This document shows positions 7,807-27,475 of a stretch of DNA of 46,288 nt, one piece after another (positions within the stretch are counted from its first letter, which is position 1; every line of letters starts with the position of its first letter). Where the stretch lies: the NCBI GenBank assembly GCA_009887195.1, contig QXXX01000073.1, forward strand, positions 67,329 through 113,616, given 5' to 3'. The notes under the pieces are model-generated. The model had not been told where the DNA came from. It saw only the letters and a list, made by a program, of their open reading frames with translations, and did not search any database. The stretch comes from Candidatus Poseidoniales archaeon (GTDB lineage Archaea > Thermoplasmatota > Poseidoniia > Poseidoniales > Poseidoniaceae). The position numbers and the translations under genes were made by a program.

Positions 7807-8763
7807 ATGGGCGATAAATCATCATTAGGCAAAGTATTGTATCCAAAAACCTCACCACATGCTACTGGAATGCTTCAAGTTTCCAGCCTGCACACAATCT
7901 TTTGGGAGCGTAGCGGTAATCCTTTGGGAGAATCTGTGATCGTCATCCATGGCGGTCCTGGGGGTGGCTCTCAACCAGCCTACCGTCAATACTTCAGTCC
8001 AGAAAAATTCGACATAATACAATTTGATCAAAGAGGATGTGGTAAATCTACCCCCTATGCAGAATTACAAGAAAATAATACGCATAATTCTGTTGCAGAT
8101 ATCGAGGCATTAAGAGAACATTTAGGAATTGACTCTTGGCATGTATTTGGGGGTTCTTGGGGCTCAACATTAGCACTGATATATGCACAAAACCATCCAA
8201 AGCGGGCTCAAAGTTTGATCCTGCGGGGGATATTCATGTGTCGTAAAAGTGAGTTGCAGTGGTTCTATCAGCAAGGGGCAAGTCACGTATTCCCCGATGC
8301 CTTTGAACCATATTCACAACACATTCCGATTGAAGAAAGACACGATTTAATCACCGCTTACTATCAAAGACTGACTCATGAAGATGTTGAGATTAGAAGA
8401 GCGGCTGCTAAAGAATGGACTCGATGGGAAATGGCAACCAGCCGTTTATTGCCTGACCCAGAATATTTAGAAAAAGCGGAAGATCTAGATTTTGCAGTAG
8501 CATTTGCTAGGATTGAATGTCATTATTTCATCAATGGAATATTTGTCGAAGATGGCCACATCCTCAATAATGTCGAGAAGATTAAGCACATTCCAACCAC
8601 CATTGTGCAAGGTCGTTATGACATGGTATGCCCAACTATTAGTGCATGGGAATTACATAAAGCATTACCAGAAAGCAAATTAATCATTGTCCCAGATGCT
8701 GGACATTCAATGGGGGAGGCCAGCATTGCCCGAGAATTAGTCAATGCAACTGATAACATTTAG
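7807..8763 (+). CDS. pip: Proline iminopeptidase-like alpha/beta hydrolase (S33)
   Basis: VIHGGPGGGS, FDQRGCGKSTP, FGGSWGSTLALIYAQ nucleophile elbow, ...PDAGHSMGE. Confidence 0.88.
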   Translation: MGDKSSLGKVLYPKTSPHATGMLQVSSLHTIFWERSGNPLGESVIVIHGGPGGGSQPAYRQYFSPEKFDIIQFDQRGCGKSTPYAELQENNTHNSVADIEALREHLGIDSWHVFGGSWGSTLALIYAQNHPKRAQSLILRGIFMCRKSELQWFYQQGASHVFPDAFEPYSQHIPIEERHDLITAYYQRLTHEDVEIRRAAAKEWTRWEMATSRLLPDPEYLEKAEDLDFAVAFARIECHYFINGIFVEDGHILNNVEKIKHIPTTIVQGRYDMVCPTISAWELHKALPESKLIIVPDAGHSMGEASIARELVNATDNI

Positions 8764-9663: not shown

Positions 9664-10512
9664 ATGGGCGGCCTAGCTAGGGGCGGTCATGCCCCGGTTT
9701 TGATAACCTTCATGATGGGGTCAAGTGCGATAATTATCGGCATCCTAATAGATTCATTAAACGGCTTAATTCACTTGTTTGGCGTACTATGCTGGATGAT
9801 GGCGGCCTTTTTCGCTAACTTTTGGCGAGATCCAGACCGAAAAATACCCAAAGACGAGGGAATACTTGTCTCACCAGCAGATGGCCATGTAATGTTTGTA
9901 AGAAGAGAGCGAGCAACAGGTAGGAGACCTTCAAGCGGGGAGATGGGCAGCGACAGAATAGAATCTGACAAATTAACTGGTCCATGGTATCCAGAACCAA
10001 TTGAACAACCGCTATCATTTGCGACAGAGCAGCGCTTTGAATCTGTACCGGCTGGCGAAGAATCAGAAAATGATGTATATCGCGTGGCTATTTTCATGTC
10101 GCCTCTCGATGTTCATGTCAACCGTTCACCATGTTCGGGAGTTATTGAAAGAATGGAACATAGAACTGGTCAAGGCCGTCGTAGAGGCCCATTCTTACCG
10201 GCCATGAAAAAGGAAAGCGAGCATAATGAGCGTGTTAGAACAGTCATACTTGCTGAGGGAGCCTACAGAATTGAAGTTTGCCAAATATCAGGGGCGCTAG
10301 CTAGAACTATTGTGCCATGGACTGGAATAGATGATAAATTAAGACGAGGCCAGCGGTATGGGATGATACGGTTAGGTTCTAGAGTTGATGTTAGAGTGCC
10401 GGCTAAATTGTTCACTCCGTCCGTAGAATCGGCTGAGTCTGGTAATCCAGAGTATCCAAAAGGTCAGTTTGTCCAAGCGGGCTCAAGTATTCTATTCAAC
10501 CCAGTGATGTGA
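9664..10512 (+). CDS. Phosphatidylserine (archaetidylserine) decarboxylase-like protein
   Basis: ILVSPADGHV, FMSPLDVHVNRSP, ISGALARTIVPW, and the pyruvoyl-processing LGSRVDV motif (GS). RBS ggtgatg upstream. Confidence 0.87.
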   Translation: MGGLARGGHAPVLITFMMGSSAIIIGILIDSLNGLIHLFGVLCWMMAAFFANFWRDPDRKIPKDEGILVSPADGHVMFVRRERATGRRPSSGEMGSDRIESDKLTGPWYPEPIEQPLSFATEQRFESVPAGEESENDVYRVAIFMSPLDVHVNRSPCSGVIERMEHRTGQGRRRGPFLPAMKKESEHNERVRTVILAEGAYRIEVCQISGALARTIVPWTGIDDKLRRGQRYGMIRLGSRVDVRVPAKLFTPSVESAESGNPEYPKGQFVQAGSSILFNPVM

Positions 10513-11683: not shown

Positions 11684-11740
11684 TGACTTTTTCCTGCTAA
11701 TCTAGTGAATGTTTATCACCACTCTGCCGGTGGCTTGGAA

Positions 11741-11771: not shown

Positions 11772-12041
11772 ATGAATAACTCAATATTGCCGGATGTAAC
11801 GGTCGGAACTGGCCAACCATCCATGGGACGAGTAGCACTTACACTGATGTTTGTTGGTGTGTTTGGATTATTTGCTTTATTTGCCAATGTATTTGGCTGG
11901 GACGCAATGCCTATTCTGGGTGATGTTGTACCGTTTATTGGTAATCTCGGTGGCAGCGGAATTTGGTATTATTTAGTTGGAATTCTTATTGGAATTGGAG
12001 TCGTAGTTGCGACATTAATCGGCGAGGTAATCGTCGAATAA
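11772..12041 (+). CDS. Small (89 aa) two-TM membrane protein, possible partner of the downstream protein
   Basis: Two hydrophobic segments (VALTLMFVGVFGLFALFANVFGW; WYYLVGILIGIGVVVATLIGEVIV). GGTGAG RBS. 13 nt upstream of the next CDS. Confidence 0.75.
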   Translation: MNNSILPDVTVGTGQPSMGRVALTLMFVGVFGLFALFANVFGWDAMPILGDVVPFIGNLGGSGIWYYLVGILIGIGVVVATLIGEVIVE

Positions 12042-12054
12042 AGGGGTTTAGAAT

Positions 12055-14241
12055 ATGGAACCAATTTTCATTTCAGCAGCAATATTACTAGCGACACTAT
12101 TGGTCGTTTCCTATTATGTAACCAACGGCGTTGGAACAATGGGAGTGCCATTGAGGCAATTTGCCTTATTTTTGATGAATAAGGCTCCAGTTGGATTAGT
12201 TGATCTATTCAAAGACGAACCTGGAAGCGGCAGTAGGACTTGGATGAAATTTGGAACAGGATGGTTTATTCTCACTGTAATTAGTAGTTTTATTGCCATA
12301 TGGCATAATTACGACCCAACTGCTTTGGACTCATTGGCTAGTATAGGATGGTCATATGATGACGGTTCAGCCTTAGCAGACTTCACATCTGCTGTGATGT
12401 TGATATCCTTCACCTATCTGGTGATAGGAGGGTGCTTGGTTGCAGTCGCTCGTGCAGGCAACAATCGTTTGGCCAGTGAAGCAAGTGCTTCAATGGTTGC
12501 TGTATTGTATACTGCTTCACTTTCATTTAATCTAATTTTAATCCCAATAATCTTCAATTTTGCCGACATTGCAGATGCGGAAACCATTAGAGATTTAATT
12601 TCCTTAATGGTAAACTATGTTGTTTCAAGCCTATTGTTTACCGCACTGCTAATGAATGTGTTAGCGACCTATTCACAACGTGATGACGGGTCTACTTCAG
12701 TAACTGCTTGGTTCCTCATTATGGCTATAGTGTCCAAATTAATCGCTTCAATGTATTACGTAATAGGAGAGGCAACAGATAATACCCAAATGGTTTGGAT
12801 GTCAGAGCGTGTGCTTGAGGGTTGGGTTCCACTCGCTTTGATGTTCGCCTTAGCATACCACGTAATCCCTCATGCGGCAACGGCTCCTATTTGGTCAGGT
12901 TCTTTACTAAAAGCAAATATGGTTCTGCTGTTTTTAACAGTCCCACCATTCTTCATGACCTCTGCAGACGCCGGAGAGTTACTACAAAATGTTGGAGCAC
13001 TACTGCTGACATTCTCTCTACTGCCCTTATTTGCCGGTTCAGTAAATCTTCTAGCAACTGCTTCGTCTAACTCTAGTGGCGTACTAAAAAACCCAGGAGC
13101 CTTGTCGGCAACATTAGCAATGTTCTTGTTGCCAATATTTGCTGTTGGCAGTTACTTTACCGCCATGGACACCTTCACTGGCACTAACCAAATGTTAACA
13201 ATGTCCTCTACTATTGATAACGGATTTATGTACACTGTTGGAGGATTAATGATGCTATCTGCAATCTTCTCGTCTTACCCATTAGCAACTGGAAACAAAC
13301 TAGCCGAGCCATCAAGAGCAAACATGTCTGTGTGGTTTATGATGCTAGGTGGTCTAACCGCAACAATCACTATGTTGATTGGTGACTTTACCTCAAAGGC
13401 AGTATTAGATTCGGGAGTTGAAGATGTAGTTGCTTCAACATCAGGATTTTACCTGGTTGCTGCAGCTATGTTTTACCTTGTGCCTATCTCTGCTATTCTA
13501 GCAACGTTAGTTTTGATCAGAACCGGTACTTCATCACAGAAAATCGCCGAAGTTGGCTCTAAAATTTCTGATGTAGAAACATATACTCTAGTCGAAGGAA
13601 CTAGCACCACTATTCAACAATTATTAGGTCGTGGAGTTGGTGTAAACACTAATTTGGTAATTGGTGATGCAACCGAGGACGAAGGGGGCTCAACAGTAAT
13701 AGCCGTCTCTGCAACCTTGCACAACGACGAAATTACCGAATTCCCAGAAGAAGATCCTGTAGATGAAGCACATGAAGAGGATAAAGGTCCTGCTAAGGAA
13801 TTGATGATGCTAGTTGATTATCTAAAGAACAGCGGTCAAACAGTATTCGACTTCTTCAAATCTATTGACTTAGATAACTCGGGTAGTATAGACGGATTCG
13901 AGTTTCAACAAGCTTTGCTAAACAGTGACGTAGGGGATTTTCCCCCGTGGGAAGTAGACGAACTCGTGGCTGCCATTGATCTTGATAGCGATGGAAACAT
14001 CAATCTTCCAGAGTTAGATATTGCTTTAGCAAAGATTGCAGCAGCATACGGTTCACCAGAGCCAAAAGATGGAGAAGATGCAGAAGATGCAGAAGATGCA
14101 GAAGATGAGGCCAGTAATGAACTCTCAAAAACCGATCTAGGTAAACTAAAGAAAGCAGAGTTAGTATCTATTGCTAAAGAGAAAGGCGTTGCAGCAACAG
14201 GAACAAAGGCCGAATTAGTGGCTGCAATATTAGGCGAATGA
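12055..14241 (+). CDS. Polytopic membrane protein (possible degenerate heme-copper oxidase subunit I-like core) with C-terminal EF-hand pair and SAP motif
   Basis: About 12 hydrophobic segments; EF loops DLDNSGSIDGFE and DLDSDGNINLPE; SAP-like LGKLKKAELVSIAKEKGVAATGTKAELVAAIL. Confidence 0.8.
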   Translation: MEPIFISAAILLATLLVVSYYVTNGVGTMGVPLRQFALFLMNKAPVGLVDLFKDEPGSGSRTWMKFGTGWFILTVISSFIAIWHNYDPTALDSLASIGWSYDDGSALADFTSAVMLISFTYLVIGGCLVAVARAGNNRLASEASASMVAVLYTASLSFNLILIPIIFNFADIADAETIRDLISLMVNYVVSSLLFTALLMNVLATYSQRDDGSTSVTAWFLIMAIVSKLIASMYYVIGEATDNTQMVWMSERVLEGWVPLALMFALAYHVIPHAATAPIWSGSLLKANMVLLFLTVPPFFMTSADAGELLQNVGALLLTFSLLPLFAGSVNLLATASSNSSGVLKNPGALSATLAMFLLPIFAVGSYFTAMDTFTGTNQMLTMSSTIDNGFMYTVGGLMMLSAIFSSYPLATGNKLAEPSRANMSVWFMMLGGLTATITMLIGDFTSKAVLDSGVEDVVASTSGFYLVAAAMFYLVPISAILATLVLIRTGTSSQKIAEVGSKISDVETYTLVEGTSTTIQQLLGRGVGVNTNLVIGDATEDEGGSTVIAVSATLHNDEITEFPEEDPVDEAHEEDKGPAKELMMLVDYLKNSGQTVFDFFKSIDLDNSGSIDGFEFQQALLNSDVGDFPPWEVDELVAAIDLDSDGNINLPELDIALAKIAAAYGSPEPKDGEDAEDAEDAEDEASNELSKTDLGKLKKAELVSIAKEKGVAATGTKAELVAAILGE
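14074..14109 (+). repeat. Tandem 9-nt repeat (gaagatgca x3 plus one degenerate copy) encoding an EDA linker
   Basis: gaagatgcagaagatgcagaagatgcagaagatgag read directly. Confidence 0.85.
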
Positions 14242-18976: not shown

Positions 18977-21900
18977 TCACAAAAGGTCATCCAAAAACGA
19001 TGTGTCAATATTTGGTTTTGGGGCCTGTTCATTATTTAATTCACTAAGCAGCGCACTGTTTTGGGGTTGTAAAACAGGTTGTTGCTGTTGATATAGATCT
19101 CTTTGATATGGGTTTGAATTATCAATTCTCTGCGCGGCGGAATAAATGTCATTTTGAGCCTGTGGGGTAATTTGCGGTGGTGGCGCAACTTGTGGGGCAA
19201 CACTGGCTGGTGCAGAATCATCCCAGCTCAAATCATCTTGAATCCCCCAAGTGGCCTCTTGGAGTTCCCATGACTTATCCTTCATCCGTTGATCTCCTCT
19301 AGATCTAACAATCGCAATTAACAAAAATAGCACGACAATTAATAATCCAGCGGCCAGTAAGTTTGTCGACGTTAACAATGAACTAAAGTCAGTATTTTCG
19401 TCAGAATCTTCAGTAGTTTCTACGGCTGTTGCACCAGCTGGTGGGACTTCAAGAGAGGCTACTGAAGACCTAGTAGTATAGTCGTCAAATGGAGATACTG
19501 CAACATACCAAGTAGTTTGGTTATCCAAATCTTCAAACACCTCAGAATTAATTAAGAAGTTGGTCGAAGCAAAAACCTCGCCAATTTCAATTGCCGAAGT
19601 GATTCCATCGAATTCTTCATCCGAAATATAAATCTTATATCCTCTAATTTCACCGTTATTGATACCACTCCATGAGACTATTATTTCATCACCGTCAAAC
19701 CATTCTGCGCGAAGGTCTTCCACTGGAGTAATATAATCGCCAGAGTCATCAAAACCATCATCAACAGATTGACTTGAAACTACAGTTAAGTCGTCTAAAT
19801 ATGCATTGCCAGCGGTATCTCTTGCCACAACAGTAGCCCATACTTCTAGTCCTGTGACAACAGGCATATCACCTGCAACAATCTCAATCAAATGAGGAAG
19901 ATTTGGATTTCTATCTAATACGGCAATCGGCGTTGTTGGGCCGCCGCCGCCTGCAACGACACTGGTGAATGGATTTGATGCAGCATATATCTCATATGAG
20001 CCAACATCGCTCGCATCGCTCAAATCAAAAGTAAACAGCAGTGCAGTTCCATCGTCATTAGGTCTGTCAGTCAACGCCATCTCAACTAATCTAGCAGGTG
20101 GTTGGGTGTCGACAATATTATTGATTGGCGTAACCGCTGCTTCTGGTAAGTTTGTCAAATATACATTGCCTTTGATATCATGAACAGTTACTGTGACAAA
20201 GAGTTCAATATCGGGTTTGATTAATTGCGGAGTCGCCATAGTCAAGTCCATCAAATTATTTGGTGGACTATACAGGGCAGTTGAAACTGTTAATTCAATT
20301 GGGTTTTTATCTTCATCAATCCATTGCTTATCAATCTTCAAACACCCGCATTTATCAGGGTCATCACCAAATGCAGCCCAAGCACCACTTAGGTCTGAAA
20401 CAGGTTGGTCAGCGACCCAAACAATGTAGTACGCGAAGTCATCAACATTAGAAACAGTCCATACGATATCGATAGCAGTTCCATCATCTTCTGCATGATC
20501 ATAAGCATTGACAGAATCAATGCGTTCAGGAGTTCCACCACTTCCTACAGTGTTCTTAAACGGCGTTGCAGATACTCTTTCAACATCGACTAAATCAACA
20601 TTTAACCAGTCATCATATGCCACAACAGCAAGTAGGTATGGCTGACCATCTTCAAGTTGAATACCAGCATAATTGTCAATTATCGCGCTTGTTGTACCAC
20701 AATCATCGATTATTTCTGCTTGAATAAAGCCCCAAGCATCTAGTGATTGCAAGATTTCGATATCGGGTTGTCCATCGTCTGGCATAACCCATACCTCATA
20801 GAATGTACAATCCTCAGCAGTACTCTGGTCCCAAGAAATAGTAATTCTACCACCATCGTCATCAGGAGTATCTATTGCCTCAACATTCTCCAACTTAGGC
20901 GGTGGCGTTAGGTCGTTTAATCCACCAGTAGGTACTACCGGCCCGATTACAGTCGGGTTGAAAATATCTTCTTGGCCAGCATCATCTACGCATGTAAGGG
21001 CAATCCAGTATGGCCTTCCTGGGTTTAATTGAAGCACAGTAGTATTGCCTTCTGTTGGAGGTAAATCGGCAATAGGAAACAAACCAAGTACGTCATTGAT
21101 ATCAATTGTGGATGAGTAGATTCGTGTGCTAGCCAAATCTAAAGAAGTACACCGAGCCCATTCTAAGTCAAGGTCGCCATCTTCGCCTCCTTCATGTGGT
21201 CCAGCTTCAGCCCAGAGTGGCGATACCGGTACTTCATCAGTAGGAATTGCCGGCCCTAATTGCATGGAAGGATTACCCAACCTGCCATCATCGTATTCAA
21301 CTACAATTACAGCATGATACGCAACTCCATCAGTCAATGGAACTCCGTTAGCGGTAGTAACCTCGCTTTGCAATCTACTGTGCAAGGAGATGGTTTTGTC
21401 TACCACTCTGCCAGTTAAGTCATCAGCCGTGATGTCTAATGTACCTGAAGCGCTAGTGAAAGGTCCTTCATTAACATAAACCAAATATCTAGCGAAGTCA
21501 TCATCGTGGACCAAAGTCCATGATGCAGTTAGTGCACCACCGCCATCATCAGGGCGGTCTACTAGATTCGTGAGGTCAATTGGAGTTTCTAACTTAATGT
21601 AATCATAAGTAATTCTTACTTCTAGTGAGCCATTGTTTGGTGAGCGGAGATTCAACTGAACAAATTTAGTGCCGTTAATTTGAACAGCGTTATCAACTGC
21701 TGCTTGTAATGTATTGGATAGTTGTGGGTCATCTGAGAGATTAAGCGTCACTGCATACTTCAAACTGTTAGATTGAGCCCAAGTTGCTGCACCGCTGACA
21801 GGTGAGGAAAAGGCTAGAGGCACCCCTTGGAATAACAGGTTGTGAACACCAGGAGTTCCGCTATCCTGGTCTAGAGTGATTGGATTTGCGGTATCAGCCA

Positions 21901-24900
21901 GTTGAATTTGAACACCAGGGTGGGTCATGTTTGTAATGTCTAAATTTACCAGGTTGAATCCCATGGTAAGAGGATCGGCCCGGCGCAACTCAAATCTTTC
22001 TAACGGCGTCCATTGTGGATTATTCATCCAGCCAAACAAGCCGTCATCGTCTGTAGCGAGCCATAAATAATCTGAGGAAAGATCTCCGCCCGTTAGAGTG
22101 ACATCTGGTATGATGAATACCTTAGTGACAGAGTGTGCAGGCGTTCTTGCTTCTAGAATAGTGACGACGTTGTTGCCAATAGCCATGACTTGGTCACCGT
22201 TACTAACGAGTTTTTCGACAGGCCAGCTAGATATCTGGAATGCAGATGCGCCATCTTCAAATTGATTGTTCAAACCGTTCCAATGAGTCATAGGCCCGAC
22301 ATCAGTAGCAATGTGAAGGCCCCAGAAATCACTGGCAATTGCTGTTATTGTATTGGACGGTAGTTGATCGAACCGATGAGTTGCAATAACTAATCCGGAG
22401 GCCTCATTGATGCTAGACACCCCTGGTCTTTCACTTCCAGCACCATTATGGCTAACATGGATTTGGACATTTCCAACATTATCCGTTGTTTTTATCAAGC
22501 CCCATGTAGATGTTCCAATCATGCCATTTGCGCTGGTAAGTGTGTTGATAGAATTAGTATTGATATCTATTTTTACTAAACCAGACGGTGTTGCAGCCCA
22601 TAGATGTGGATCTTCAAAGACGAGGTCTTGGATTATATTTGATGGCAGTCCATCAGTACTAGTAATCGGATTTAACCAATCATTGGTTTGGAAAGACCAT
22701 CTGCCAATACCACCATCAGTGGCAATGTACATGATATTGTTATCAGTTTCAAACCCGTTTACTATGTTGGAGGGCAGTCCAGCAACAAGACGACCATTGC
22801 CAAAAGTATCAGTTAGAGTATCGAACACTTGGACTCCAGCAGACGATCCGAAGTTACCCTGCAGACCGATGATCAAATCAGTCCCAACTAACTTTAAACC
22901 ATCCATGTTATTGTGCAATGCCCCATTTATTGGGCTGAGTGAAGCAGAAACAGTATCTAATTTCATTAGTCCAGCAGGAGAAGTTGAGATGTAAAGGTCA
23001 GTGCCCACTAACTGAGTATCCTTAGCTTGTGAGTTTGCTGGCAAAGTCCATCCTTGCTGCCATTCTACCGAGCCATCGTTTTGCCTTTCACCTTGCAAAA
23101 TACCAGCCCCAGTCGATTGGCCAAACCCAACGTTCTCTCCAATTGTAGTGACCCAGAGATGAGTGCCATTGCCAGTCATAGTCGTTACCTGCCCGCTAAC
23201 CAATCCGGGTAGATTGTAGACTGTACTTTGGCCATTAGCATCCAAATAATCAACTCGGCTGTAGCCAGATGAGCCGCCGGCTTGCCCAAGCAACCAACCA
23301 GCCCCAGTCCATTGGAACGAAGTAACAGAAGAGCCTTGGGCGTTGGAATTCACCTGACTGGTAATTGCTCCAGTAGTTGATATTATGGAATATCCGCCCC
23401 CAATAATGTTTGAACCATCTTGTCCAAGGCCGTGCCCTACAATCAGCTTACCAGAGTCGTAACCAATTGCATCCCACCAAATTCTGTCACTTGGAAGGTT
23501 GTGGGTTTGAGTAGTAATGTCTGCTAGCCATTGGCCAGTATTCGTATTGTATTTTTTGATGGGTTGTTCATCTTCGTAAAAAGTAACATACAGTGTATCG
23601 GTTGAAGGGTCGCAGGCAACGCCAGAGACTCGACCTTCGCCCAGAGATGCTTGAGTAAAAGTATTGACAATAGTTGAGGTTGTCAAATCAATTTGTTCTA
23701 TTCCACCATTATTGTCGTAAATTCCAACATTAAGCAAACCTCCACATTCTGCCATAGTTAGAGGATAACCTCTTTGAATTCCATTCTGACCATTTGAAGT
23801 AAAAACGTTCCAATTAGCACCATCCCAGTGAGAAATCGCGCCACCCTGGAATCCGCCGAAATTTGACCCATCACCGCCACCGACAACAAGATCAAGACCG
23901 TTAGTCCATAATTCATAGATTTCTTCTCCAGCATTATTTGGCAATCCATTGTTCTCTTCCCAAGTAGGAAGCCAGCCGCCATTGTTACTGTCATATCGGG
24001 CCACTCCCGATTCGGTGGCGAACAAGGTTTCACCATCATATTCGATAATTTCCCTTATCGGGAAATCAAGGCCATCGTCGCTGTCCCAAGAGCCGACAAA
24101 GGCGCCTAGGTTGTTGTATAGGTCAAGTTTCAACTCTCCCCACGAAACCCACATTTCTCCGGAGGAAGTCTCGTATGCAGTCACTCTGTCAACTTGGCCA
24201 GTTGGTTCAATATTTTCGCCCCAATCGTCATCGCTAATATTCCACTGTGCAATACCGCCACGACCGTCATAATAGTCGGGGAAACCACCATTTGAAGCAA
24301 CACCAGTCATGATTACATCATCTATCAAACCCATTCCCCAAGCCGGACCGCTATTGTCATCTAGTTGGATTCCAGCATCAATATTGGATAATTGATTAAA
24401 GTTAACGAGGTCAATTCGATAGAAACTGTTACTATCGTCTCCTTGATGATAATACATGACATCATTGTAAACAGTCATTTGGTACGGCTCACCGTTTCCA
24501 AGATAAATTGAATTAGATTTCTCAATGTCATAGACTTCTACTTGGTTTACTACATCGATTAATTGGAAACCATCCTCTCCACCGATCCATAATTGGTCTG
24601 GATTAATGTCTGCAACCAGTCCAGTGACAAACTGATTTCCGTCATCTAAGACGTCATCTTCAGTCCATGTAGGCAACCATGAATTAGTTGAGATTTCATA
24701 TCTTGCAATACCTACACCGTTTAATCCAACATAAGCAATATCGCCAATAACTTCAACTGGAGCATTGTCAGTATCTTCACTGGCTTCCCATGTATCAACT
24801 ACTTCAAAGGGGTTAGCAGTTAGAATACCAACGCCATCATTGGTCCCACCGTAAATCTGAGACCCGTCAGTGCCCACAGAATATGTAGCCCAATCTGGCA

Positions 24901-27304
24901 TGCCGTCGTACACATTTTGGCAGTCATCAACCACTAATGTGCTGGTTGGATATTTACAAACGCCACGGTCTGTGCCAACATAGATATCATTGCCAAGTAG
25001 AACAAAGTCAAAGAATTGATCCGGTTGTGTCACCCAACTTTGTCCTCTTCCGGAGAAATCGACAGACTGTACACCGTCCCATTTCACCGCTCCATCATCA
25101 GCGCCAATGTATAGCGCTGACCCATCAGAAATCAAGGCATATACGTTATCATTTGGCAGAATTTCTATACCATTTACGTCAGAATTTTCAACTAGGGGCA
25201 ATAGAATTTCACCATTGGTCAAATCTTTTCTTACAACTCCATAGCCAGGTAAACCCATATGCAGAATATCATCAAACACAGCTAGAGGTACATTGTTGGC
25301 GTTATTGACTCCTGTTGAGCCCCAAGGGGCAAGGAACGTTTCATTAGTCATATCAAAACGGGCAAGTCCAATGTCGGAAGTGGCAATATATGCCATATTA
25401 TTGAAGGTCGCTATATCTTTGATTATTGAAGAGCCCAGCCCAGAATTTTCATCATAGGTTGTTATTGAGTTACTAGATATATCAATTATGGAAATTGCTG
25501 AATCTGAGTTAACTGAGAGCAATTTATTACCAGAAATTGCTAGGTTGTTCACATTATTACTAAACAATCCGTCAATATCTGACCAGGTCTGTACTATGGT
25601 ACCATTACTGAGCATTTTGTGTGCTCCAGTACTCTCTCCAGCAATGTAAATATGCACGCCATCGGTAATTAGGTCGTTGACATCATCGCCGATTAACTTT
25701 GGTGTAAGCCATCTTGAAGCAGTAGTGTCATATCGATTCATGATTCCATCTGCGGCAACGAAAAGCACCCCATCGAGCTCTACAACATCATCCATATCCG
25801 CTGAGGTCGGCCCACTCGCCAATAGCATATTGCCTTGGTAAAGTGGCGTTGCCGCAGCATCAATAATAGCCAAATCTCCGCCACCATCACTGATTAATAC
25901 AATCTCTGTTGATGGAGACCTTACGCCTATGTTTGGCCATGTCAATAGTTTTCGGCCATCATCAACCAATCCATAATCGGCCAAATCATAAGTCTGTAAG
26001 AACACACCATTTGCGGTGTTGTACGTTTGGATAGCGCCGCCGTTTAAGATCATCAAAATATTACCCGAAAGAGCAACATCGGCGACATTGTTTGAGGTTA
26101 ACCAGTTGCCATCGTTCCAGGTAGATAGCCAGAAACCGGTATTCCAGTCGTATCGTGCTAAGCCAGCGTCTTCTGAAGTCATAAGCAGTTGGTTGCCGGA
26201 AATTTCGAAGGAAGTAACAGAATCGGAATGTAGATTATTAGCACTTGACCAAGCAGACAATTCAGAATTTGTTGTTAAATCCCATCTAAGTACGCCGCCA
26301 TTTTCAAAAGAGAAGTAAAGGATATCTCCCACCTCAATAATATCTAGTGCTTGGCCAACTGAACTTTTAATTAACACATTATTCCAATCATTGCCATCAA
26401 AAACGGCGATTCTATCAGAATTTGACGCATAAGGGGTTCCATCGCTGGCGATTATGAATTGGTCAAATTGGACGAATTCAATTGTATCTAGATCAAATAC
26501 AGTCTCAGGCAACGGCGTTAAAATAGATGTATCAACAAGGGAAAGTGCATGGAAATAATCATCATTGGTTAGCACGTGTAGAGCAAGATTAGTATAATCA
26601 ATTTCCAGGTCGACGATTCTTTCTGCATCGTCAAAACCGATGATGTCGATAATCTTCGGCTGATTATTGTAATCGATAACCAATAATGAATTATCAATTG
26701 CCAAATACATCCTTCCATCAACGAAGTGAATTGCATAGTCTGCAATATTAATGTCTACAGGTTCAAACGTCACTGCAGGGTCAACAGGGGCTAAAGCCTC
26801 TATTATCAAGTCATTAATTTCTGCACCCGAGGGGAGCGTCCAATAAGCACCAGCATCGCTGTTGGGCGACAGCCTGCCTGAATGGGGATTAGCGCCAGTG
26901 AAGGAATCGCTTGAACCTAGCATGCCCAAACCATTCCAATCAAACAGGTTGATGCCTACATCACTGGCAGTTATCACAGGTTCTTGGATTAACATCCCGC
27001 CACTGCCATTCACCCTAACCTCCATAGTTACATTCGACAGTAGGGCGCCTGGGGCAAATTCGAGCCCCCAGTTTGCATTGGCTGACATCCCTATACTTGG
27101 ATCCGCTCCAATTGCGTCGAGTTGTACCCAACCAGTATCATTGCTGCCTTGCTTTTCCCAAACGGTGGCGTTACCGTTTTCGTGGGCAGAAACGGGGTTT
27201 ACAGTCATTAACGGCGAAAGCGAGGTAATTACCATCAATAAAGTGAGTAGCAGAGCTTTTTTTGCTCCGCTAACTCGAGATGCCACACTAAACTTACCGT
27301 TCAT
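18977..27304 (-). CDS. Giant (~2775 aa) secreted/membrane-anchored protein: signal peptide, many beta-propeller-type repeats, ~6 Fn3-like domains, C-terminal TM and Q/P-rich cytoplasmic tail
   Basis: Signal MNGKFSVASRVSGAKKALLLTLLMVITSLSPLMTVNPVSAH. Recurring G(V/L)xRYDxxxxxWLxxW...LxxNxV units; repeated DxPxDDGxxxxxxW...DDFxxYxVYV units; TM AAGLLIVVLFLLIAIVRSR. The ORF-track start at 27451 is extended; ATG 27304 fits the signal peptide. Confidence 0.88.
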   Translation of the reverse strand: MNGKFSVASRVSGAKKALLLTLLMVITSLSPLMTVNPVSAHENGNATVWEKQGSNDTGWVQLDAIGADPSIGMSANANWGLEFAPGALLSNVTMEVRVNGSGGMLIQEPVITASDVGINLFDWNGLGMLGSSDSFTGANPHSGRLSPNSDAGAYWTLPSGAEINDLIIEALAPVDPAVTFEPVDINIADYAIHFVDGRMYLAIDNSLLVIDYNNQPKIIDIIGFDDAERIVDLEIDYTNLALHVLTNDDYFHALSLVDTSILTPLPETVFDLDTIEFVQFDQFIIASDGTPYASNSDRIAVFDGNDWNNVLIKSSVGQALDIIEVGDILYFSFENGGVLRWDLTTNSELSAWSSANNLHSDSVTSFEISGNQLLMTSEDAGLARYDWNTGFWLSTWNDGNWLTSNNVADVALSGNILMILNGGAIQTYNTANGVFLQTYDLADYGLVDDGRKLLTWPNIGVRSPSTEIVLISDGGGDLAIIDAAATPLYQGNMLLASGPTSADMDDVVELDGVLFVAADGIMNRYDTTASRWLTPKLIGDDVNDLITDGVHIYIAGESTGAHKMLSNGTIVQTWSDIDGLFSNNVNNLAISGNKLLSVNSDSAISIIDISSNSITTYDENSGLGSSIIKDIATFNNMAYIATSDIGLARFDMTNETFLAPWGSTGVNNANNVPLAVFDDILHMGLPGYGVVRKDLTNGEILLPLVENSDVNGIEILPNDNVYALISDGSALYIGADDGAVKWDGVQSVDFSGRGQSWVTQPDQFFDFVLLGNDIYVGTDRGVCKYPTSTLVVDDCQNVYDGMPDWATYSVGTDGSQIYGGTNDGVGILTANPFEVVDTWEASEDTDNAPVEVIGDIAYVGLNGVGIARYEISTNSWLPTWTEDDVLDDGNQFVTGLVADINPDQLWIGGEDGFQLIDVVNQVEVYDIEKSNSIYLGNGEPYQMTVYNDVMYYHQGDDSNSFYRIDLVNFNQLSNIDAGIQLDDNSGPAWGMGLIDDVIMTGVASNGGFPDYYDGRGGIAQWNISDDDWGENIEPTGQVDRVTAYETSSGEMWVSWGELKLDLYNNLGAFVGSWDSDDGLDFPIREIIEYDGETLFATESGVARYDSNNGGWLPTWEENNGLPNNAGEEIYELWTNGLDLVVGGGDGSNFGGFQGGAISHWDGANWNVFTSNGQNGIQRGYPLTMAECGGLLNVGIYDNNGGIEQIDLTTSTIVNTFTQASLGEGRVSGVACDPSTDTLYVTFYEDEQPIKKYNTNTGQWLADITTQTHNLPSDRIWWDAIGYDSGKLIVGHGLGQDGSNIIGGGYSIISTTGAITSQVNSNAQGSSVTSFQWTGAGWLLGQAGGSSGYSRVDYLDANGQSTVYNLPGLVSGQVTTMTGNGTHLWVTTIGENVGFGQSTGAGILQGERQNDGSVEWQQGWTLPANSQAKDTQLVGTDLYISTSPAGLMKLDTVSASLSPINGALHNNMDGLKLVGTDLIIGLQGNFGSSAGVQVFDTLTDTFGNGRLVAGLPSNIVNGFETDNNIMYIATDGGIGRWSFQTNDWLNPITSTDGLPSNIIQDLVFEDPHLWAATPSGLVKIDINTNSINTLTSANGMIGTSTWGLIKTTDNVGNVQIHVSHNGAGSERPGVSSINEASGLVIATHRFDQLPSNTITAIASDFWGLHIATDVGPMTHWNGLNNQFEDGASAFQISSWPVEKLVSNGDQVMAIGNNVVTILEARTPAHSVTKVFIIPDVTLTGGDLSSDYLWLATDDDGLFGWMNNPQWTPLERFELRRADPLTMGFNLVNLDITNMTHPGVQIQLADTANPITLDQDSGTPGVHNLLFQGVPLAFSSPVSGAATWAQSNSLKYAVTLNLSDDPQLSNTLQAAVDNAVQINGTKFVQLNLRSPNNGSLEVRITYDYIKLETPIDLTNLVDRPDDGGGALTASWTLVHDDDFARYLVYVNEGPFTSASGTLDITADDLTGRVVDKTISLHSRLQSEVTTANGVPLTDGVAYHAVIVVEYDDGRLGNPSMQLGPAIPTDEVPVSPLWAEAGPHEGGEDGDLDLEWARCTSLDLASTRIYSSTIDINDVLGLFPIADLPPTEGNTTVLQLNPGRPYWIALTCVDDAGQEDIFNPTVIGPVVPTGGLNDLTPPPKLENVEAIDTPDDDGGRITISWDQSTAEDCTFYEVWVMPDDGQPDIEILQSLDAWGFIQAEIIDDCGTTSAIIDNYAGIQLEDGQPYLLAVVAYDDWLNVDLVDVERVSATPFKNTVGSGGTPERIDSVNAYDHAEDDGTAIDIVWTVSNVDDFAYYIVWVADQPVSDLSGAWAAFGDDPDKCGCLKIDKQWIDEDKNPIELTVSTALYSPPNNLMDLTMATPQLIKPDIELFVTVTVHDIKGNVYLTNLPEAAVTPINNIVDTQPPARLVEMALTDRPNDDGTALLFTFDLSDASDVGSYEIYAASNPFTSVVAGGGGPTTPIAVLDRNPNLPHLIEIVAGDMPVVTGLEVWATVVARDTAGNAYLDDLTVVSSQSVDDGFDDSGDYITPVEDLRAEWFDGDEIIVSWSGINNGEIRGYKIYISDEEFDGITSAIEIGEVFASTNFLINSEVFEDLDNQTTWYVAVSPFDDYTTRSSVASLEVPPAGATAVETTEDSDENTDFSSLLTSTNLLAAGLLIVVLFLLIAIVRSRGDQRMKDKSWELQEATWGIQDDLSWDDSAPASVAPQVAPPPQITPQAQNDIYSAAQRIDNSNPYQRDLYQQQQPVLQPQNSALLSELNNEQAPKPNIDTSFLDDLL

Positions 27305-27327
27305 TGGTATATTGGCACATCTTACAC

Positions 27328-27360
27328 TATTTGAACGCGGCCCTAATTCGTGTTCAAATA
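27328..27360. promoter_or_regulatory. Perfect 9-bp inverted repeat TATTTGAAC-N15-GTTCAAATA in divergent promoter region
   Basis: Arms 27328-27336 and 27352-27360 read directly, between the divergent giant-protein and malic enzyme genes. Confidence 0.5.
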
Positions 27361-27475
27361 TATCATTAAAACCGTCGAACAAACCGTAAATCATACAAAA
27401 ACCCAGTTCACACCATACATACTTCCCCAAACAATCAAACATCGTATACAACTTCGATGGCTTGGAAGTGTTTCA

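Follow-up and report, generated by a model that had tools for sequence, protein, structure and literature searches.

A Poseidoniales membrane protein family related to the oxidase subunit CcoN lacks the canonical heme and copper ligands and adjoins a two-helix partner

Few membrane enzymes have been studied as much as the heme-copper oxidases, which are defined by their metal ligands. Uncharacterized archaeal relatives of these enzymes have a precedent in halobacterial fam02696, an archaeal hypothetical family that Meheust et al. (2022, PMC9258230) report to be distantly homologous to subunit I of heme-copper oxidases. In literature searches that covered open main texts, neither the Poseidoniales family reported here nor a ligand-less heme-copper oxidase homolog was described. 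In this study, we analyzed a window of 46,288 nucleotides from a Poseidoniales genome, the whole stretch of DNA considered below, and followed up a sequence-only reading of it. This reading had pointed to an open reading frame of 728 codons preceded, at a distance of 13 nt, by one of 89 codons. Both are present where it placed them and lie on the same strand (Table 1).

Table 1. Features of the gene pair and its surroundings (window coordinates)
Feature	Coordinates	Strand	Basis
Pseudo-CcoN, 728 aa	12055..14241	+	ORF, profile matches, structure models, purifying selection
Membrane core, residues 1-502: extra N-terminal helix (2-24) and 12 oxidase-type helices I-XII	12055..13560	+	AlphaFold helices
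End of TM VI and VI-VII loop, AYHVIPHAATAPIWSGSLLKA; its counterpart is a 21-letter CcoN stretch	12853..12915	+	hhalign
Conserved cytoplasmic linker with order-wide motif T[TS]IRxLLxxGxGxDT	13561..13698	+	alignments
EF-hand pair, residues 598-653, loops DLDNSGSIDGFE and DLDSDGNINLPE	13846..14013	+	Pfam
SAP motif, residues 694-725	14134..14229	+	Pfam
Two-helix membrane partner, 89 aa	11772..12041	+	order-wide adjacency, alignment
TATA-like element GTTTATCAC, probable promoter of the pair	11711..11719	+	conserved upstream sequences; inference
Perfect 17-bp palindrome TGACCCCTTCGGGGTCA between TATA-like element and start codon	11741..11757	+	
RaSEA, archaeosine biosynthesis radical SAM protein, 388 aa	10517..11683	+	TIGR01210, E 3.7e-89; conserved upstream neighbour
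YchF-related GTPase with TGS domain, 426 aa	14255..15535	+	NF007171, E 1.8e-127

The sequence-only reading had likened part of the 728-aa protein to CcoN by eye, and had counted about 12 transmembrane segments. Searching Pfam, NCBIfam and the PDB with the first ~500 residues as a single sequence gave no usable match. One ortholog (L032) aligned colinearly with the COX1 profile PF00115 (residues 59-433 with profile positions 3-401 of 436, E 1.5e-6), a match that lies below the curated cut-off. In profile-profile comparisons, a family profile built from 33 members matched CcoN over ~406 columns (E 4.4e-15), and over ~395 colinear columns when one more divergent CcoN was included (E 4.6e-18); a further comparison gave E 6e-18. 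Each of the two archaeal families matched CcoN separately, with E 3.7e-10 for a Poseidoniaceae-only and E 1.1e-16 for a Thalassarchaeaceae-only profile. The alignment spans residue 37 to about residue 449 of the window protein, and the closest profiles were those of three divergent short CcoN relatives (L150-L152; E 1.2e-17). By the same method the family profile gave no significant match to the A-type COX1 of the same genomes (E 0.04) or to NorB (E ~1e-3), hence the CcoN match is not the product of membrane-protein composition alone. Kinship with the genomes' own A-type COX1 was rejected on this comparison.

Structure models agreed with the profiles. AlphaFold, run on shallow input alignments (33 and 55 sequences), returned pTM values of 0.82 for the window protein and 0.84 for a member from Thalassarchaeaceae, and the predicted helices are the 12 of the oxidase type and one extra at the N terminus. 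For both models the seven best Foldseek matches in the PDB were all CcoN chains (best E 3.4e-8 for the window model and 2.7e-12 for the Thalassarchaeaceae model; TM-score over the target up to 0.78), followed by subunit I of ba3, cNOR and aa3 enzymes. The 12-helix subunit I fold together with significant profile homology places the family within the heme-copper oxidase superfamily, and CcoN is the nearest of the oxidase families compared, by profile as well as by Foldseek, which places it in the C-family. The resemblance seen by eye thus extends to the first ~500 residues. One could still argue for an unrelated transporter that resembles CcoN by chance or convergence, since the window protein alone matches nothing in Pfam or the PDB by sequence; given a profile E of ~5e-18 over ~395 colinear columns, and structure matches that are independently led by CcoN and not by another transporter, we regard this as exceedingly improbable. 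An oxidase fold and oxidase descent are near certain, and the data show that the 728-aa protein descends from CcoN, subunit I of C-family cbb3-like heme-copper oxidases.

We then mapped the six His ligands through the profile alignment onto 55 diverse members. The TM II position is His in 0/55, the two TM X positions in 0/55 and 1/55, and neither TM VII position has a His at its aligned column, where the columns fall in a gapped stretch and any nearby His occurs in at most 2/55 sequences. The TM VI position has His in 16/55 and Arg in 18/55, with other residues in the remainder. The loss of CuB and heme His ligands that had been suggested from the sequence is therefore borne out, with five of the six positions virtually without His, and the family does not have the set that binds the low-spin heme, the high-spin heme and CuB. 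Structural residues from the cytoplasmic side of CcoN are kept (Mesorhizobium CcoN numbering): S292 and N345 in 55/55, W216 and T349 in 54/55, W442 in 51/55 and P289 in 50/55. In the VI-VII region of the window protein, W280 and S281 are invariant in the family alignment. CcoO/FixO (PF02433) was absent from 6/6 Poseidoniales genomes searched. We hold with high confidence that the canonical redox centre has been lost, and because the ligands for both hemes and CuB are gone, the protein cannot be a terminal oxidase of a known kind. From the His kept at the TM VI position in 16/55 members, and from further His residues that some members have at positions 86, 129 and 269, one might read a gas or redox sensor whose heme or metal is still bound, by other ligands. 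However, none of the His, Cys and internal Met columns comes near to invariance in the family alignments, so that we see no conserved set of replacement ligands, and a sensor of this kind is very unlikely.

The family is not decaying. We found the core in 56/60 relatives, with the misses mostly in incomplete genomes; the close relatives belong to Poseidoniaceae (MGIIa), and those further away mostly to Thalassarchaeaceae (MGIIb). We also sampled 293 genomes evenly across the phylum. Of the Poseidoniales genomes listed from this sample, 81/82 had the core; it was found in no genome outside the order, six from another family of the same class among them. The dN/dS ratio is 0.03-0.09 for the core and 0.04-0.15 for the tail; the family is under strong purifying selection, and its low core ratio shows that the gene has not decayed.

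Loops assigned by oxidase topology carry, per protein, 14.8 Lys/Arg on the predicted cytoplasmic side vs 0.9 on the outer side. By the positive-inside rule the C-terminal tail is thus cytoplasmic, as the sequence-only reading had assumed. Conservation is skewed to the same side, with 2.45 vs 2.11 bits for the cytoplasmic and the other half of the helices (p 1.7e-4) and 2.48 vs 2.00 bits for cytoplasmic and outer loops (p 2.3e-4). The exception is the predicted outer I-II loop, whose strong conservation (2.90 bits) means that the outer face is under some constraint too. These data bear on the possibility that the emptied heme cavity and the old proton paths were turned into a channel or transporter for ions or small solutes, gated by Ca2+ through the EF-hand tail in Poseidoniaceae. 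Ca2+-binding tails are typical gates, the centre of the twelve-helix bundle is emptied, and there are conserved polar residues on its cytoplasmic half (N201, T205, S281, N331 and T335). However, no conserved charged residue lies deep within the helices, the conserved N, T, S, W and P are mostly residues kept from CcoN near the cytoplasmic helix ends, and searches against transporter families matched none. We consider a conducting function unlikely.

The tail carries the domains that had been read from the sequence, as Pfam agrees. The EF-hand pair scored above the cut-offs of PF13499 (E 3.6e-7) and PF00036 (E 3.2e-7), and its two 12-residue loops of the DxDxDG type are predicted to bind Ca2+. 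The SAP motif (PF02037), for which nucleic-acid binding is predicted, reached 23.4 bits (E 4.6e-5) in an hmmscan of the whole protein, just under the cut-off of 23.9, and 28.4 bits, above it, in the genome scan. The same reading had taken coupling of Ca2+ sensing to SAP as the essence of the system, and this did not hold in the ortholog survey. Among 179 loci examined, at least two EF-hand loops were present in 96/96 long-tailed proteins, all from Poseidoniaceae, and in 0 short-tailed ones, three of which end at contig ends; by family, this is 96/96 Poseidoniaceae vs 0 of ~80 Thalassarchaeaceae. SAP, identified by pattern, is patchy, with 38 of the 96 long-tailed Poseidoniaceae proteins and three loci from one Thalassarchaeaceae genus without EF-hands. 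Nearly all Thalassarchaeaceae have the core and the 89-aa partner without an EF-hand/SAP tail. In two relatives from Poseidoniaceae (L177 and L179), the tail has one or two helix-hairpin-helix-like domains beside the EF-hands, which indicates that modules of the nucleic-acid-binding type were recruited more than once. EF-hands and SAP motifs are common elsewhere in these genomes, with 8 SAP matches and 14 EF-hand_7 matches for the genome of the window, and earlier work (PMC9258230) mentions that family-specific protein modules from Poseidoniales have calcium-binding domains. Being limited to lineages and common elsewhere, the tail domains are a lineage decoration on a universal core and do not define the system. 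We rejected the Ca2+/SAP coupling as its defining feature.

The 89-aa protein had been proposed as a partner subunit, and conservation of the two-gene unit supports this. Its homologs form a family that adjoins the core across the order, with a median gap between the genes of 13 and 9 nt in the two families, and the alignment shows two helices with invariant P16, P47, W65, G70 and G74. A two-gene functional unit is very probable. In sets of 54 loci each from Poseidoniaceae and Thalassarchaeaceae, the gene directly after the core encodes the YchF-like GTPase in 53 and 53, and the pair is immediately preceded by RaSEA, also in 53 and 53. Outgroup genomes in which we located both RaSEA and YchF had them on different contigs. 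The GTPase is probably co-transcribed with the core, and the synteny may reflect inherited operon order without functional contact.

The first helix of the partner weakly resembles the N-terminal segment of CcoP (FixP_N, E 0.024 for one ortholog), and in a comparison with decoys CcoP ranked third of 219 segments (E 1e-3); the second helix is unmatched, and the heme-c domains of CcoP are absent from the partner. We keep an origin from a remnant CcoP hairpin, for which this likeness is weak, as a lead; the partner could be unrelated to CcoP.

Other genes of the window were noted as well. A phosphatidylserine/archaetidylserine decarboxylase-like gene (9664-10512) lies upstream of RaSEA in Poseidoniaceae; in Thalassarchaeaceae other genes usually take its place. 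A prolyl aminopeptidase is encoded at 7807-8763 (TIGR01249, E 2.8e-127), and the minus strand at 18977-27451 encodes a putative surface protein of 2824 aa in which one can see by eye many repeats that resemble propeller segments, a membrane anchor at the C terminus and a short tail.

Upstream of the pair, the palindrome is nearly invariant in Poseidoniaceae, while many Thalassarchaeaceae have other inverted repeats instead, with a strong hairpin at 79/103 loci, where shuffles lead one to expect 25. Taken as one RNA hairpin, the palindrome has a stability that is unexceptional relative to shuffled sequence (z -1.15), and no Rfam family matched across the window. It occurs once in the assembled genome of the window, and an operator of a regulon was rejected for this reason. 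The element may be an operator or a 5'-UTR hairpin.

The neighbourhood also bears on whether the protein is a pseudo-subunit, or an assembly or regulatory factor, of a genuine A-type oxidase. Each of 5/5 Poseidoniales genomes checked has one genuine A-type COX1, located elsewhere, and MGII live aerobically, using cytochrome c oxidases of low affinity (PMC6336850). However, no oxidase gene family is among the recurrent neighbours of the unit, and six genomes from another family of the same class have COX1 but not the unit, which makes such an accessory role improbable. In the genuine A-type COX1 from the genome of the window (L063 1249-3576, minus strand), the oxidase domain is preceded by a long N-terminal extension that contains a CxCH motif (GCSCHGG).

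Conservation on the cytoplasmic side, the restriction of constant companions to the two-helix protein, the GTPase and RaSEA, and the position of the tails at the cytoplasmic end favour a different use of the scaffold. We put at about even the chances that a redox-dead oxidase subunit has been reused as a membrane platform or regulator that faces the cytoplasm. In such a structural or regulatory platform, which would act through its cytoplasmic face, the 89-aa partner would pack on the helix bundle, perhaps at the sites taken by the CcoP/CcoQ helices in cbb3 oxidase, and the cytoplasmic loops and the C-linker, whose order-wide motif comes after helix XII, would dock a soluble partner, with the YchF-like GTPase as the first candidate. 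The EF-hand pair could make docking Ca2+-responsive in Poseidoniaceae, and SAP or helix-hairpin-helix add-ons could modify it in subclades. We infer the scaffold role, the contact with the partner, the response to Ca2+ and the link to the GTPase from these patterns. The full combination, an order-wide, non-redox and cofactor-free heme-copper oxidase homolog with a two-helix subunit, engaged in cytoplasmic signalling or anchoring, with a Ca2+ connection in one family and an operon link to a YchF-like GTPase, is somewhat less likely than the platform by itself, and we propose it tentatively.

Poseidoniales (Marine Group II) are an abundant order of surface-ocean archaea, and nearly every genome has the family. 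A fold that is kept by strong purifying selection without its cofactors shows that the oxidase scaffold can live beyond redox chemistry, and makes an oxidase fold that is free of cofactors by nature available to researchers. It is also a warning that distant matches to COX1 profiles need not mean an oxidase.

Among known systems, fam02696 resembles the Poseidoniales family in being archaeal, uncharacterized and a distant subunit I homolog, but is often near oxidase genes, according to PMC9258230, whereas the Poseidoniales unit is not. NorB/qNOR, the nitric oxide reductases related to the C-family, has the same overall fold and is among the next-best Foldseek matches, but its profile match is not significant, and its ligands are missing in the 728-aa family. 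Differences from CcoN/FixN are the absence of ligands for heme b, heme b3 and CuB, the absence of CcoO in the six genomes, the extra N-terminal helix and the cytoplasmic C-linker or tail. CcoN/FixN, and especially its divergent short relatives, is the closest known system, sharing with the Poseidoniales family the 12-helix fold, the topology, a colinear profile match and the residues on the cytoplasmic side.
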